64,000 bases of DNA from positions 62,001-126,000 of the forward strand of contig NZ_CABFVH010000003.1 of NCBI RefSeq assembly GCF_902141855.1, in the 5' to 3' direction. Both the position numbers and the translations under genes were made by a program. The DNA is from Methylobacterium dankookense. Its GTDB lineage: Bacteria; Pseudomonadota; Alphaproteobacteria; Rhizobiales; Beijerinckiaceae. This document shows, piece after piece, positions 13,271 to 60,619 of this stretch (the stretch's first letter is position 1; the number at the start of each line of letters is the position of its first letter). The notes below the pieces were generated by a model. That model was not told the DNA's origin and did no database searches. It saw nothing but the letters and a program-made list of their open reading frames with translations.

Positions 13271-13380
13271 TTGGAGCGCCCTTCCGCCGACATGGGTGCC
13301 GGTCCGGCGAAAGCGCGCGCGTCATGACAAGGACTGGGAGCCGGACTCGGTCGCGATGCGATCGGGCACGGCTCCAGCCG
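13271..13380 (+). repeat. Two-hairpin intergenic repeat, divergent full copy
   Basis: This copy aligns end to end with those at 50991 and 28965. Hairpin 1 has the inner stem CGCCG/CGGCG around the conserved loop region ending in CCGGT. Hairpin 2 has GGAGCCG (13336) paired with CGGCTCC (13369) around GGTCGCGATGCGATCGGG. It occupies most of the gap between the methyltransferase and the 13503 gene. Confidence 0.65.
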
Positions 13381-27055: not shown

Positions 27056-28771
27056 ATGACCCTCAACGGCTGGATCCAGATCGCGCTGTTCTGCGCGGTC
27101 GTGCTGGCGCTCGTGAAGCCGCTCGGCCTCTACATGACCCGCGTCTTCACCGGCGCGCGCACCCCCCTCTCGCCCGTGCTCGGCCCCGTCGAGCGCGGGC
27201 TCTACCGGGCGGCCGGCATCGATGCGGGCCACGAGCAGAGCTGGCTCGGCTACGGGCTCGCCATGCTCGCCTTCCACGCGCTCGGCTTCGTGCTGCTCTA
27301 CGCGGTGCTGCGCCTGCAGGCTCTGCTGCCCCTCAACCCGATGGAGCAGGCGGCGGTGGCGCCCGACCTCGCCTTCAACACGGCGGCGAGCTTCGTCACC
27401 AACACCAACTGGCAGAACTACGGCGGCGAGAGCACGCTCTCCTACCTGTCGCAGATGCTCGGGCTGACCCACCAGAACTTCCTCTCGGCGGCCACCGGCA
27501 TCGCGCTCGCCGTCGCGCTGATCCGCGGCTTTTCCCGCGCCTCGGCGCGGACGGTCGGCTCGTTCTGGGTCGACCTGACCCGCTGCACCCTCTACGTGCT
27601 GCTGCCGCTCTGCGCCGTGCTGACCCTGTTCTACGTCGCGCAGGGCATGCCGCAGACGCTGTCGCCGTATGTCGAGGCGACGACGCTGGAGGGCGCGAAG
27701 CAGACCATCGCGGTCGGCCCGGTGGCGAGCCAGGTCGCGATCAAGATGCTCGGCACCAATGGCGGCGGCTTCTTCAACGCCAACGCCGCGCATCCCTTCG
27801 AGAACCCGACCGCGCTGGCGAACTTCGTGCAGATCGTCACGATCTTCGCGCTCGGCGCCGCGCTCACCAACGTCTTCGGCCGCATGGTCGGCGACGAGCG
27901 GCAGGGCTGGGCGATCCTCGCGGCGATGATGCTGCTGTTCGTGGCCGGCGCCGCCGTGACCTACGGGGCCGAGGCCGCGGGCAGCCCCGTGCTGAACGGG
28001 CTCGGGCTCACGGGCGGCAACATGGAGGGCAAGGAGGTCCGCTTCGGCATCATCGCCTCGGCGCTCTTCGCGGTGGTGACGACGGCCGCCTCCTGCGGCG
28101 CGGTCAACGCCATGCACGACTCGTTCACGGCGCTCGGCGGCCTCGTGCCGATGCTCAACATGCAGCTCGGCGAGATCATCGTCGGCGGCGTCGGGGCGGG
28201 CCTCTACGGCATGCTGGTCTTCGTCGTGGTGGCGATCTTCGTGGCCGGGCTGATGGTCGGGCGCACGCCGGAATATCTCGGCAAGAAGATCGAGGCGCGC
28301 GAGGTGAAGATGGCCATGCTCGCCGTCCTCTGCCTGCCGCTGATGATGCTGGGGCTCACGGCGCTCGCGACCGTGCTGCCGGCGGGCCTCGCCGGCCCCG
28401 CCAATGCCGGCCCGCACGGCTTCTCGGAGATCCTCTACGCCTTCACCTCGGCGGCGGCCAATAACGGCTCGGCCTTCGGCGGGCTCACCGGCAACACCCT
28501 GTTCTACAACGTGACCCTGGCGCTCGGCATGCTGGTCGGCCGCTTCTTCGTGATCCTCCCGGCGCTCGCCATCGCCGGCTCGCTCGCGGCCAAGAAGCGG
28601 GTCCCGGCCTCTTCCGGCACTTTCCCCACCGATGGCGGGCTGTTCGTCGGGCTGCTCGTCGGCGTCATCCTGATCGTCGGCGGCCTCACCTTCTTCCCGT
28701 CGCTGGCGCTCGGCCCCGTGGTCGAGCACCTCGCCGGCGCGGCGGGCCAGACCTTCGCGACGGGGGGCTGA
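27056..28771 (+). CDS. kdpA: Potassium-transporting ATPase subunit A (K+ channel-like)
   Basis: A 571-residue membrane protein with about ten helices, the K+-selective translocation subunit of the high-affinity KdpFABC pump. Selectivity-loop segments are recognisable, e.g. [19 protein letters not shown] (about 107-125), [19 protein letters not shown] (about 230-248), [16 protein letters not shown] and the final [14 protein letters not shown]. Full length. It is followed after 1 nt by a small extra ORF rather than by kdpB. Confidence 0.95.
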
Positions 28772-28772
28772 G

Positions 28773-28967
28773 ATGCCGCGCGCCCTCGACCTCCGCCGCT
28801 CCCGGCACCTGCTCGCCCAGGCGCCGCTCCGCCACCGCGCGCACGGGCCCGAGCCGCGGCCGGTGCGCACCTCCGACCTCGTGCTGGCCCTCCTCTCGGT
28901 GGTGATGCTCGGCGGCCTCGCCCTCGCGGCGGCCTTCGCGCTGACCGCCGGCACGGCCGCGCCCTAG
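28773..28967 (+). CDS. 64-residue membrane protein between kdpA and kdpB
   Basis: It starts 1 nt after the kdpA stop, so it is translated with kdpA. It has a basic N-terminal half (RHLLAQAPLRHRAHGPEPRP) and one membrane helix (residues 35-58, LVLALLSVVMLGGLALAAAF). It is not one of the canonical Kdp subunits. Its TAG stop lies inside the first bases of a two-hairpin repeat. Function unknown. Confidence 0.6.
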   Translation: MPRALDLRRSRHLLAQAPLRHRAHGPEPRPVRTSDLVLALLSVVMLGGLALAAAFALTAGTAAP

Positions 28968-29076
28968 AGCATTTTCCGCGGAAGCGGTCGCCGGTTCCGC
29001 GAAAGAAAATGCGGCACGATCAATCGGTTAGAGGATTTTCTGTGATCCAGGGATCATGGGAGATCCTCTAGCGCTC
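28965..29076 (+). repeat. Two-hairpin intergenic repeat, full copy inside the kdp operon
   Basis: Hairpin 1: outer stem GCATTTTC/GAAAATGC and inner stem CGCGGAA/TTCCGCG around GCGGTCGCCGG. Hairpin 2: TAGAGGAT (29029-29036) with ATCCTCTA (29063-29070), enclosing TGATCC/GGATCA. It begins TAGAGC and ends CTCTAGCGCTC like the copy at 50991, but the stem bases differ in pairs. It separates kdpA and the small ORF from kdpB. Confidence 0.75.
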
Positions 29077-29147
29077 TTGAGCCGAATGCCGAGGACCCGG
29101 GCGTCGGCCCCGGGTCCCCTCGCCTCCCCTTCCGGACACCCAGATCC

Positions 29148-31238
29148 ATGTCCCGCAAGACCGCATCCCTGTTCAGCGCCGCCCTCGTCGGGCCGGCCCT
29201 CATCGGCTCCGTCAGGAAGCTCGATCCGCGCGCCATGATCCGCAACCCGGTCATGTTCGTGGTCGAGGTCGTGGCGGCGCTCACGACCGTCCTGTTCCTC
29301 CGCGACCTCGCCGCGGGAGGAAGCGACCTGTTCTTCTCGGGCCAGATCATCCTCTGGCTCTGGTTCACCCTGCTCTTCGCGAACTTCGCCGAGGCGCTGG
29401 CCGAGGGCCGCGGCAAGGCCCAGGCCGAGTCGCTGCGCCGCACCCGCACCGAGATGACGGCCAAGCGCCTCACCGGCGAGGGCGGCAGCTACCGGACCGT
29501 GCCGGGCACGAGCCTCAAGGTCGGCGACCTCGTCCTCGTCGAGGCGGGCGACCTGATCCCCTCGGACGGCGAGGTGGTCGCGGGCGTGGCCTCGGTCAAC
29601 GAGGCGGCGATCACCGGCGAATCCGCCCCCGTGATCCGCGAATCGGGCGGCGACCGCTCGGCGGTGACCGGCGGCACGCAGGTGCTCTCGGACGCGATCA
29701 CGGTGCGCATCACCGCCGAGCCCGGCTCGACCTTCGTCGACCGCATGATCGCGCTCGTGGAGGGCGCATCGCGCAGCAAGACCCCGAACGAGATCGCGCT
29801 GAACATCCTGCTCGCCGGCCTCACCATCGTGTTCGTCTTCGCGGTGGCCTCGATCCCGAGCTTCGCGAGCTATGCCGGCGGCACGATCCCGGTGATCGTG
29901 CTGGTGGCCCTGTTCGTGACGCTGATCCCGACCACGATCGGCGCCCTGCTCTCGGCCATCGGCATCGCCGGCATGGACCGGCTGGTGCGCTTCAACGTGC
30001 TCGCCATGTCGGGCCGCGCCGTCGAGGCGGCGGGCGACGTGGACACGCTGCTCCTCGACAAGACCGGCACGATCACGCTGGGCAACCGGCAGGCCACCGA
30101 GTTCCGCCCCGTGCGCGGCGTCTCCGAGCGGGATCTCGCCGACGCGGCGCAGCTCGCCTCGCTCGCCGACGAGACGCCGGAGGGCCGCTCCATCGTCGTT
30201 CTCGCGAAGGAGGCCTACGGCATCCGCGCCCGCGACATGGCCGCCCTCAACGCCACCTTCGTGCCCTTCACGGCGCAGTCGCGCATGTCCGGCGTCGATC
30301 TCGACGGCAGCGCCATCCGCAAGGGCGCGGTCGAGGCCGTGATCGCCGCCCTCTCGACGCAGCCGGCGGCGAGCCGCGGCTCGAACGCCGCCCTCGCCTT
30401 CGCCCCGGAGGCCGAGAGCGAGGCCGTGGCCGAGATCCGCGCCATCGCCGAGGAGATCGCCAAGGCCGGCGGCACTCCCCTCGCGGTCGCCCGCGACGGC
30501 CGGCTCCTCGGCGTCGTCCACCTCAAGGACATCGTGAAGGGCGGCATCCGCGAGCGCTTCGCGGAGCTGCGCCGCATGGGCATCCGCACGGTGATGATCA
30601 CCGGCGACAACCCCATGACCGCGGCCGCCATCGCCGCCGAGGCCGGGGTGGACGATTTCCTCGCCCAAGCCACCCCCGAGGACAAGCTGGCGCTGATCCG
30701 CCGCGAGCAGGCGGAGGGCAAGCTGGTGGCCATGTGCGGCGACGGCACCAACGACGCGCCGGCCCTCGCCCAGGCCGATGTCGGCGTCGCCATGAATACC
30801 GGCACGGTGGCCGCGCGCGAGGCCGGCAACATGGTCGATCTCGATTCCGACCCGACGAAGCTCATCGAGATCGTCGGCATCGGCAAGCAGCTCCTGATGA
30901 CCCGCGGGGCGCTGACGACCTTCTCCATCGCCAACGATGTGGCGAAGTACTTCGCGGTGCTTCCGGCGATGTTCCTCGGGCTCTACCCGCAGCTCCAGGC
31001 GCTGAACGTCATGGGGCTGGCCTCGCCCCAGAGCGCGATCCTGTCGGCGATCGTCTTCAACGCCCTCGTCATCGTCGCGCTGATCCCGCTCGCGCTGAAG
31101 GGCGTCGCCTACCGCCCGGTCGGGGCCGCCTCGCTCCTGCGCCGCAACCTCCTCGTCTACGGCCTCGGCGGCGTCCTGGTGCCCTTCCTCGGCATCAAGG
31201 CCATCGACCTCGCCGTCAGCGCCCTGCACCTCGCCTGA
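29148..31238 (+). CDS. kdpB: Potassium-transporting ATPase ATP-binding subunit B
   Basis: A 696-residue P-type ATPase subunit that hydrolyses ATP to drive K+ uptake. The phosphorylated Asp is 304 in [10 protein letters not shown]. Other P-type motifs are present: AITGESAPV (about 159-167), [16 protein letters not shown] and [17 protein letters not shown] (about 529-545). It begins with the usual KdpB opening [17 protein letters not shown]. It is unusually far (176 nt) from the preceding ORF because of the repeat at 28965. Confidence 0.96.
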
Positions 31239-50990: not shown

Positions 50991-51100
50991 TAGAGCGCGC
51001 TCCGCCGAAGTGGACACCGGTTCGGCGAAAAAGAGCGCGTCAACACAAAGGCTTAGAGCCGCGTCCCGTCGCAACGCGATCGGGAACGGCTCTAGCGCTC
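50991..51100 (+). repeat. Two-hairpin intergenic repeat, full copy
   Basis: Hairpin 1: GCGCTC/GAGCGC outer stem and CGCCGAA/TTCGGCG inner stem around GTGGACACCGG. Hairpin 2: AGAGCCG (51054-51060) with CGGCTCT (51087-51093) around CCCG and CGGG arms. It shares the frame TAGAGC...CCGGTTC...TTAGAG...CTCTAGCGCTC with the copy at 28965, and the stem differences between them are compensatory. Confidence 0.75.
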
Positions 51101-60574: not shown

Positions 60575-60619
60575 CGCGCTCTTTCGCCGGACCGGTGTCC
60601 ATTTCGGCTCAAGAGCGCG
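60575..60619 (-). repeat. Half copy of the two-hairpin repeat, reversed
   Basis: CGCGCTCTT pairs with AAGAGCGCG as outer stem, and GCCG with CGGC inside, around the conserved CCGGTGTCC loop. Read on the minus strand it matches hairpin 1 of the 50991 copy with a third version of the outer stem. No hairpin 2 was found. It lies just past the end of the dsbA-like gene. Confidence 0.6.

Follow-up and report, generated by a model that had tools for sequence, protein, structure and literature searches.

A gene-less two-hairpin repeat of Methylobacterium dankookense, probably moved by IS630-family transposases

Described two-hairpin repeats and the copies in the window

The closest described relatives of the repeat reported here are RIME1, Bru-RS and CIR. 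RIME1 of Rhizobium and Sinorhizobium, reportedly described by Osteras in 1995, is said to be 108 bp long and to comprise two palindromes, and the first paper on Bru-RS is said to be that of Halling and Bricker in 1994. In the cited passages, Bru-RS1 and Bru-RS2 of Brucella are palindromic intergenic repeats of 103-105 bp (PMC2267715, PMC2266754), or of 103 and 106 bp (PMC10800456). The CcrM-associated intergenic repeats (CIR; Chen and Shapiro 2003) appear in a section of PMC2229807 as alphaproteobacterial, intergenic sequences of about 110 bp with two long hairpins, a linker and TA ends; GANTC is placed there at the terminal loop, the TIR is listed as absent and the TSD as unknown. The RUP repeat of Streptococcus pneumoniae is presented in parts of PMC2229807 and PMC3049150 as a 107 bp sequence with IS630-like inverted repeats and a TA target, enriched between convergent genes and reported inside IS elements. 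The mobility of RIME1, Bru-RS and CIR is left open in a 2007 review.

As far as their cited passages go, the remaining sources describe a MITE of about 400 bp (PMC2680597), Br-REP1/2 of Bradyrhizobium (PMC5082802), REPs of other kinds with Methylobacterium and RIME unmentioned (PMC3733652) and transcribed REP elements with no detail on this repeat family (PMC2873474); RIMEs are excluded as repeats in PMC2573895 and PMC2245857, and the RIME paper is merely cited in PMC3233446, PMC10459465 and PMC1273637. No statement linking IS630 to RIME, CIR or Bru-RS was found among the listed titles and abstract starts of open-licence PMC papers, and an earlier statement is possible.

A two-hairpin repeat of about 105 bp, hereafter the element, is present in dozens of copies in the M. 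dankookense genome. One of them lies at 28965-29071 of the window, the 64,000-nucleotide stretch of DNA that was analysed. Copies were scored with the covariance model R1, built from 15 M. dankookense copies including the one at 28965, and the features of the window are the following.

28965 to 29071, forward strand: full-length AT-type copy, TAGAGC...CTCTAG, counted with the flanking TA on each side and the final G; R1 score 119.2 bits
28969 to 29012, forward strand: hairpin 1, from fold and covariation
29013 to 29029, forward strand: spacer between the hairpins, where AAAACAA is frequent in copies outside the genus
29030 to 29069, forward strand: hairpin 2, with a stem of 18 bp and a loop of 4 nt
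28965 to 28966, no strand: left TA of the presumed target duplication, forming with the next G the TAG stop of a small ORF
29069 to 29070, no strand: right TA of the presumed target duplication; a clean duplication was read at another copy
50991 to 51095, forward strand: full-length copy of the GC type, flanked by genes for an alpha/beta hydrolase and a thioesterase; R1 score 55.5 bits
13272 to 13377, forward strand: decayed GC-type copy reading TTGGAGC ... CCGGTCC ... GGCTCCAG; R1 score 38.2 bits
60575 to 60619, reverse strand (orientation by eye): possible relic with hairpin 1 only; fold z-score -2.1, 7 of 200 shuffles as good
27056 to 28771, forward strand: flanking gene kdpA (PF03814, E 6.3e-245)
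28773 to 28967, forward strand: small ORF of 64 aa between kdpA and kdpB, whose stop codon is the TAG of the element
29148 to 31238, forward strand: flanking gene for a kdpB-like P-type ATPase (PF00122, PF00702)

The three window copies announced by the original prediction are therefore real. The sequence frame that they were said to share stands except in the decayed copy at 13272, from which it is missing, and the CGCTC following CTCTAG, which had been counted in, falls outside the element. The half copy claimed at 60575 folds weakly and gave no R1 match in the window at E 0.01. The motif TAGAGC by itself is not enriched in the window (13 occurrences for 10.6 expected).

The strand at 28965-29071 folds with an energy of -61.1 kcal/mol. 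Folding z-scores were -6.8, -4.4 and -2.2 for the copies at 28965, 50991 and 13272, and 0, 0 and 5 of 200 shuffles, respectively, folded equally well. Hairpin 1 has an outer stem of 8 bp, an inner stem of 7 bp and a 3-nt AAA bulge on the 3' side; its conserved apex reads CGG..CCG in the 28965 copy and TGG..CCG in most copies. The 3' arm of hairpin 2 resembles an IS630 end in the subfamily consensus. The 64-aa ORF gave no Pfam match and occupies what we take to be the kdpF position. Elsewhere in the window, a fluoride riboswitch (RF01734, 39.9 bits) was noted at 201-274 on the reverse strand.

On the basis of its architecture and of matches in Sinorhizobium, Brucella and Caulobacter, the element is to be classed with the RIME1, Bru-RS and CIR repeats. 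The original prediction knew of no described function; none is described in the literature covered here, but repeats of this kind are. The two hairpin arms, the linker, the length near 110 bp and the TA ends of CIR are all found in the element. The window copy has no GANTC like that of a CIR terminal loop; in hairpin 2 this site is depleted within the genus (2 of 64 copies, shuffled mean 9.8) and occurs in 16 of 41 copies outside it (shuffled mean 6.4). The likeness to Bru-RS, which is one of size and structure, includes a 105 bp copy of Brucella cytisi that is matched with 60.2 bits by a second model, R2, built from 64 copies all belonging to the genus; the element associated with Bru-RS in print is, however, IS711 rather than IS630. 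The likeness to RIME1 comes from the Sinorhizobium replicons matched by the same genus-only model. The element would work like RUP, having in common with it the IS630-type ends, the TA target, the convergent sites and the hits in IS elements, but the two ends of RUP pair together, according to a passage of PMC3049150, whereas each end of the element forms its own hairpin.

At the gathering score, Rfam returned nothing over the element in the window or at six other loci. Below this threshold, RF02600 (BASRCI27) matched window positions 28956-29123 with 30.6 bits (gathering score 59.8) and, at another locus, L414:3110-3244. Aligned to a Caulobacter copy, BASRCI27 displays the same succession of a hairpin, an AAAACAA spacer and a second hairpin, and this entry, filed as a Brucella sRNA, looks like one copy of this kind of repeat. 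Repeat copies can thus be filed as small RNAs.

The element is short, multi-copy and dispersed, as expected of a MITE. In the M. dankookense genome (6.15 Mb, 132 contigs), blastn gave at least 45 rows with an AT-type query and at least 61 with a GC-type query, part of these rows being the opposite strand of one palindromic copy. R1 matched all 13 genus genomes, M. dankookense included, from at least 1 to at least 129 times each, counts that possibly include opposite-strand matches and come from a model favouring the AT type. R2 matched 67 of 121 genomes of the order, in 48 of 84 genera, and at E up to 0.01 gave 12 matches on pSymB and 6 on pSymA of S. meliloti and 14 on pNGR234b; Caulobacter sp. 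Root655 was matched with 90.8 bits. At least 118 stretches turned up in a scan for the frame motif. Brucella, Bradyrhizobium, Mesorhizobium, Rhizobium, Agrobacterium, Bosea, Caulobacter, Phenylobacterium and Sphingomonas are represented among the 80 that were listed, and R2 run on these 80 loci gave 96 matches. The frame motif was also seen at L436 and L424, in records named Frankia sp. RB7 and an Acidobacteria MAG, by transfer or mis-binning. A blast search of plasmids with the element matched Methylobacterium records alone (1 and 5), in part or at 75-85%.

Some copies depart from the simple form. Four lie in tandem at G011:C159:4968-5378, with a spacing of 102 bp and shared boundaries, and such tandem or nested copies with one shared boundary (also L011/L040) are consistent with recombination or with a copy landing at the end of another. 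A mini copy (L022:1501-1568) keeps both ends and hairpin 1 and has lost hairpin 2. Against G011, L044 looks like a product of recombination: in the comparison with L203, a second copy seems to have recombined into an older one, with a mosaic hairpin 2 whose arms are mismatched.

Covariation of the stems and strand asymmetry

Covariation was measured on alignments fitted to the model with a script of our own, not R-scape, in which the null places the changes of each column on a FastTree tree. The alignments comprised 64 copies of the genus (A4), 41 copies from outside it (A5), copies from two near genomes (A6) and another set from inside the genus (A7). Rows more than 95% identical were removed for the tree null, which kept 53 of 64 rows in A4, 41 of 41 in A5, 85 of 104 in A6 and 49 of 65 in A7. 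Two alignments were left out: A1, in which MAFFT had set the GC-type hairpin 2 out of register, and A3, which contained opposite-strand matches.

Outside the genus, 16 of the 36 structure pairs covary at E<=0.05 against the tree null, compared with 1 of 5529 other column pairs. Inside the genus the signal is weaker, with 6 of 36 pairs in A4 and 4 of 36 in A7 (0 of 5529 others in both) and 1 of 36 in A6 (0 of 5424). Paired cells reach 95.6% in A4 and 93.0% in A5, for 76.7% and 67.4% after column shuffling; two-sided changes affect 30 of 36 pairs in A4 (19.5 when shuffled), and sliding the partner reduces pairing to 33-46% in A4 and A5 alike. A model-free test was made on the 111 distinct sequences among 120 motif sites of 112 nt, the motif leaving most stem letters free. 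In 102 of the 111, the outer arm of hairpin 1 pairs better with its own partner than with those of other copies, and the same holds for the inner arm in 100. In hairpin 2, at least 14 of 18 Watson-Crick pairs form in 33 sites, compared with none of 111 after shuffling, and the other 78 sites fall short of that number. The original prediction, which had set a failure to find covarying pairs beforehand as its refuting test, is upheld on this point: the stems do change in pairs, and since the covariation survives column shuffles, slid partners, the tree null and the model-free test, selection on the folded form of the element is supported.

The changes that affect a single side of a stem indicate which strand folds. 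They were counted on the + strand of the element, in clusters of at least 5 copies, at pairs with a Watson-Crick consensus of at least 60% support, leaving out the three apical pairs of hairpin 1. Unique G.T and A.C changes numbered 38:23 in A6 (p 0.07) and 23:6 in A7 (p 0.002), that is 61:29 when pooled (p 0.001), and 39:21 among singletons (p 0.03). That G.T outnumbers A.C on the + strand suggests the folding of a single strand in one orientation, either RNA or single-stranded DNA. In the unpaired columns of A6 and A7, the + strand also carries 39 A>G for 10 T>C changes, which perhaps reflects the A-rich spacer.

The same counts bear on a different origin of the pairing, in which template switching at replication hairpins corrects the palindromes at the DNA level, with no selection on a folded strand. 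In many copies hairpin 2 is almost perfectly palindromic and its loop is short, which is the kind of substrate that such a correction needs. By itself, however, palindrome correction predicts as many G.T as A.C changes, contrary to the pooled ratio; unpaired C>T changes are not raised (11 for 18 G>A), and hairpin 1 retains its unpaired bulge and apex. This explanation is accordingly considered unlikely, even if it survives better than the others discussed below.

Insertion sites, neighbouring genes and IS630-type ends

The mobility of the element is supported by empty sites together with IS630-type ends. One M. dankookense copy (L035/L213, at C25:82545-82649) sits inside an IS630 transposase gene. 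The IS of G009, identical at 234 of 242 positions, has a single TA (CCACA-TA-GG), and the filled site has two (CCACA-TA-[GAGC...GCTC]-TA-GG). This copy can be considered young, since it is 99% identical to another one in the genome, and its TAG shortens the reading frame of the interrupted gene. The gene hit in this case belongs to the very family that probably moves the element.

At the kdp site, the closest relative (G011, flanks 95% identical) has CCCTAG and no element. No match to the element was listed at this locus in 58 other genus genomes, 55 of which matched the flanks, and it is absent from all 10 junctions read, G011 included. At L002, G011 and G028 carry a bare TAG without the element. 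At L260, G028 lacks it and shows CA in place of the expected TA; G011 keeps an apparent 3' remnant, so deletion seems to happen as well. The 13272 copy is absent in the G011 sequence, with flanks too diverged for the junction to be read, and the L060 junction is likewise unreadable. The duplication of TA is therefore clean in the IS630 gene, consistent at kdp and L002, and altered by one base at L260.

Both ends of the element read TAGAGC from outside, so that an insertion into the TA of a TAG or TAA codon leaves a TAG on the gene. Using a simple gene caller of our own, and counting only copies flanked on each side by 400 bp or more, we found that 61 of 161 copies (26 of 68 in M. dankookense, 27 of 64 in other species and 8 of 29 in G011) adjoin a called gene whose stop codon is the TAG of the element. 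Against the window, where 13 of 172 candidate TAs lie in stop codons and 159 are intergenic, the binomial p is about 3e-27, a value to be read for copies that are not fully independent and include stops made by truncation, such as L035. Relatives without the element have TAG at kdp and L002, the two such sites that were checked.

The gene arrangement, callable for 144 of the 161 copies, is convergent for 51, tandem for 81, divergent for 10 and inside or overlapping a gene for 2; the window gaps of at least 100 bp are 3 convergent, 21 tandem and 9 divergent. Such a preference for gene 3' ends, like the covariation, the one-strand excess of G.T and the sub-threshold match to an sRNA model, could be expected of a repeated host RNA, regulatory or structural (3'-UTR stabiliser, attenuator or small RNA), and this role would then be the source of the covariation. 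The orientation relative to tandem genes is, however, 18:18 in M. dankookense, with 20:11 and 13:3 in the other counts and 51:32 when pooled (p 0.05; 2 of these 83 lie within a called gene or overlap one), a marginal bias that fits poorly with a conserved cis-regulator. The kdp insertion is not conserved either, and no terminator or promoter pattern was found at 28700-29300. A host RNA is consequently quite improbable. Of the two roles offered by the original prediction, that of substrate for a mobilising enzyme is sustained by the empty sites and the IS630-type ends, and that of RNA is weakened, in its host RNA form, by the marginal orientation bias. Its own alternative of unrelated intrinsic terminators was rejected, the stretch around the 28965 copy being devoid of a terminator pattern and the copies forming one homologous family.

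The preferred reading, an element moved by IS630-family transposases, draws in part on its ends. These were compared at DDE_3 (IS630-family) loci, the screen being confined to this IS family. Each of the ten DDE_3 loci of the M. dankookense genome has at least one exact TAGAGCN5CCG, in one case (L214) about 1.4 kb off the domain; control flanks totalling 150,932 bases contain the motif 9 times. At 14 of 37 genus DDE_3 loci, of which L211 and L213 are one IS, two TAGAGCN5CCG ends form a pair at a distance of 900-1350 bp, with no more than 2 mismatches between them in all; the other 23 have no such pair, some of them being fragments or contig ends. The IS copies bounded in this way measure about 1030-1061 bp, or 1172 bp where the element interrupts. 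The ends differ in a second subgroup of IS630, where they read TAGTG (L226, L235-L237). Among DDE_3 loci elsewhere, those bounded by TAGAGC number 4 of 7 on S. meliloti pSymA/pSymB and 1 of 6 on the M. extorquens AM1 megaplasmid.

TAGAGC, in most cases followed after five bases by CC(G), is thus common to the element and the IS630-family elements of the genus. Beyond it, at positions 7-24, the right end of the AT type agrees with the IS L239 of G001 at 15 of 18 positions and that of the GC type with the IS L220 of G007 at 14 of 18, a level reached in 0 of 2000 shuffles in both cases. The left ends agree weakly with IS ends (AT type 10 of 18, reached by 309 of 2000 shuffles; GC type 12 of 18, by 17 of 2000), so the inverted repeats common to the element and IS630 of the same group are weak on the left. 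The M. dankookense genome yielded no IS with ends of the AT type, the AT match lying in G001, and over 13 species the number of element copies does not correlate with that of DDE_3 matches (Spearman -0.05). When 55-nt ends were folded, IS630 gave -16.4 kcal/mol (22 ends) and the element -26.7 and -25.9 kcal/mol (25 copies), so the IS can apparently dispense with hairpins of this kind.

Another transposase that duplicates TA could be proposed as the mobiliser, for instance of the IS5/IS427 type like IS711 of Brucella, which a passage of PMC2266754 links to Bru-RS repeats and describes as apparently duplicating the TA within YTAR. The agreement of both right ends with IS630 ends speaks against this, and IS711 is described as inserting into Bru-RS, a use of the repeat as a target rather than its origin; such a mover is therefore improbable. 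A REP/BIME-type element moved by a RAYT (Y1, PF01797) on single-stranded hairpins would match the two hairpins and the one-strand asymmetry, as an HUH enzyme would, yet it is hardly credible: TA duplication is not known to go with Y1 chemistry, and PF01797, in a search that found it in the E. coli and Caulobacter controls, occurs in 5 of 59 genus genomes (own included) and is absent from M. dankookense, where a RAYT is not favoured as the present-day mover.

Proposed mechanism and wider reading

On balance, the element is quite likely to be a gene-less, MITE-like hairpin repeat moved in trans by IS630 at TA, which rebuilds stop codons and whose fold is kept. In this mechanism, IS630-family transposases would move the element in trans by cutting at TA. 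Because GAGC reads inwards at both ends, insertion into TAG or TAA would rebuild a TAG in either orientation, and insertions into stop codons would be tolerated for this reason. The most tentative step is the last one: copies folding as a single strand right behind the stop would provide harmless or protective mRNA 3' ends, only lineages that fold would keep spreading, and the two end hairpins would hence be kept. The idea that the hairpins persist because a fold at gene ends is harmless or protective in mRNA should be given slightly less than an even chance.

What is new here is the probable manner in which the element moves, the class of repeat being already known. As a tentative extension, a little less likely to hold than to fail, RIME1, Bru-RS and CIR could form one superfamily of IS630-mobilised MITEs, with self-paired terminal hairpins that evolve by compensatory change, selection on one strand, a landing in stop codons that repairs itself and a hairpin at the mRNA 3' end. 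The strong covariation of a mobile element also calls for caution, a host RNA not being proven by covariation alone. Finally, the rebuilding of stop codons would account for the crowding of such repeats at the ends of genes, with no function for the host being required.
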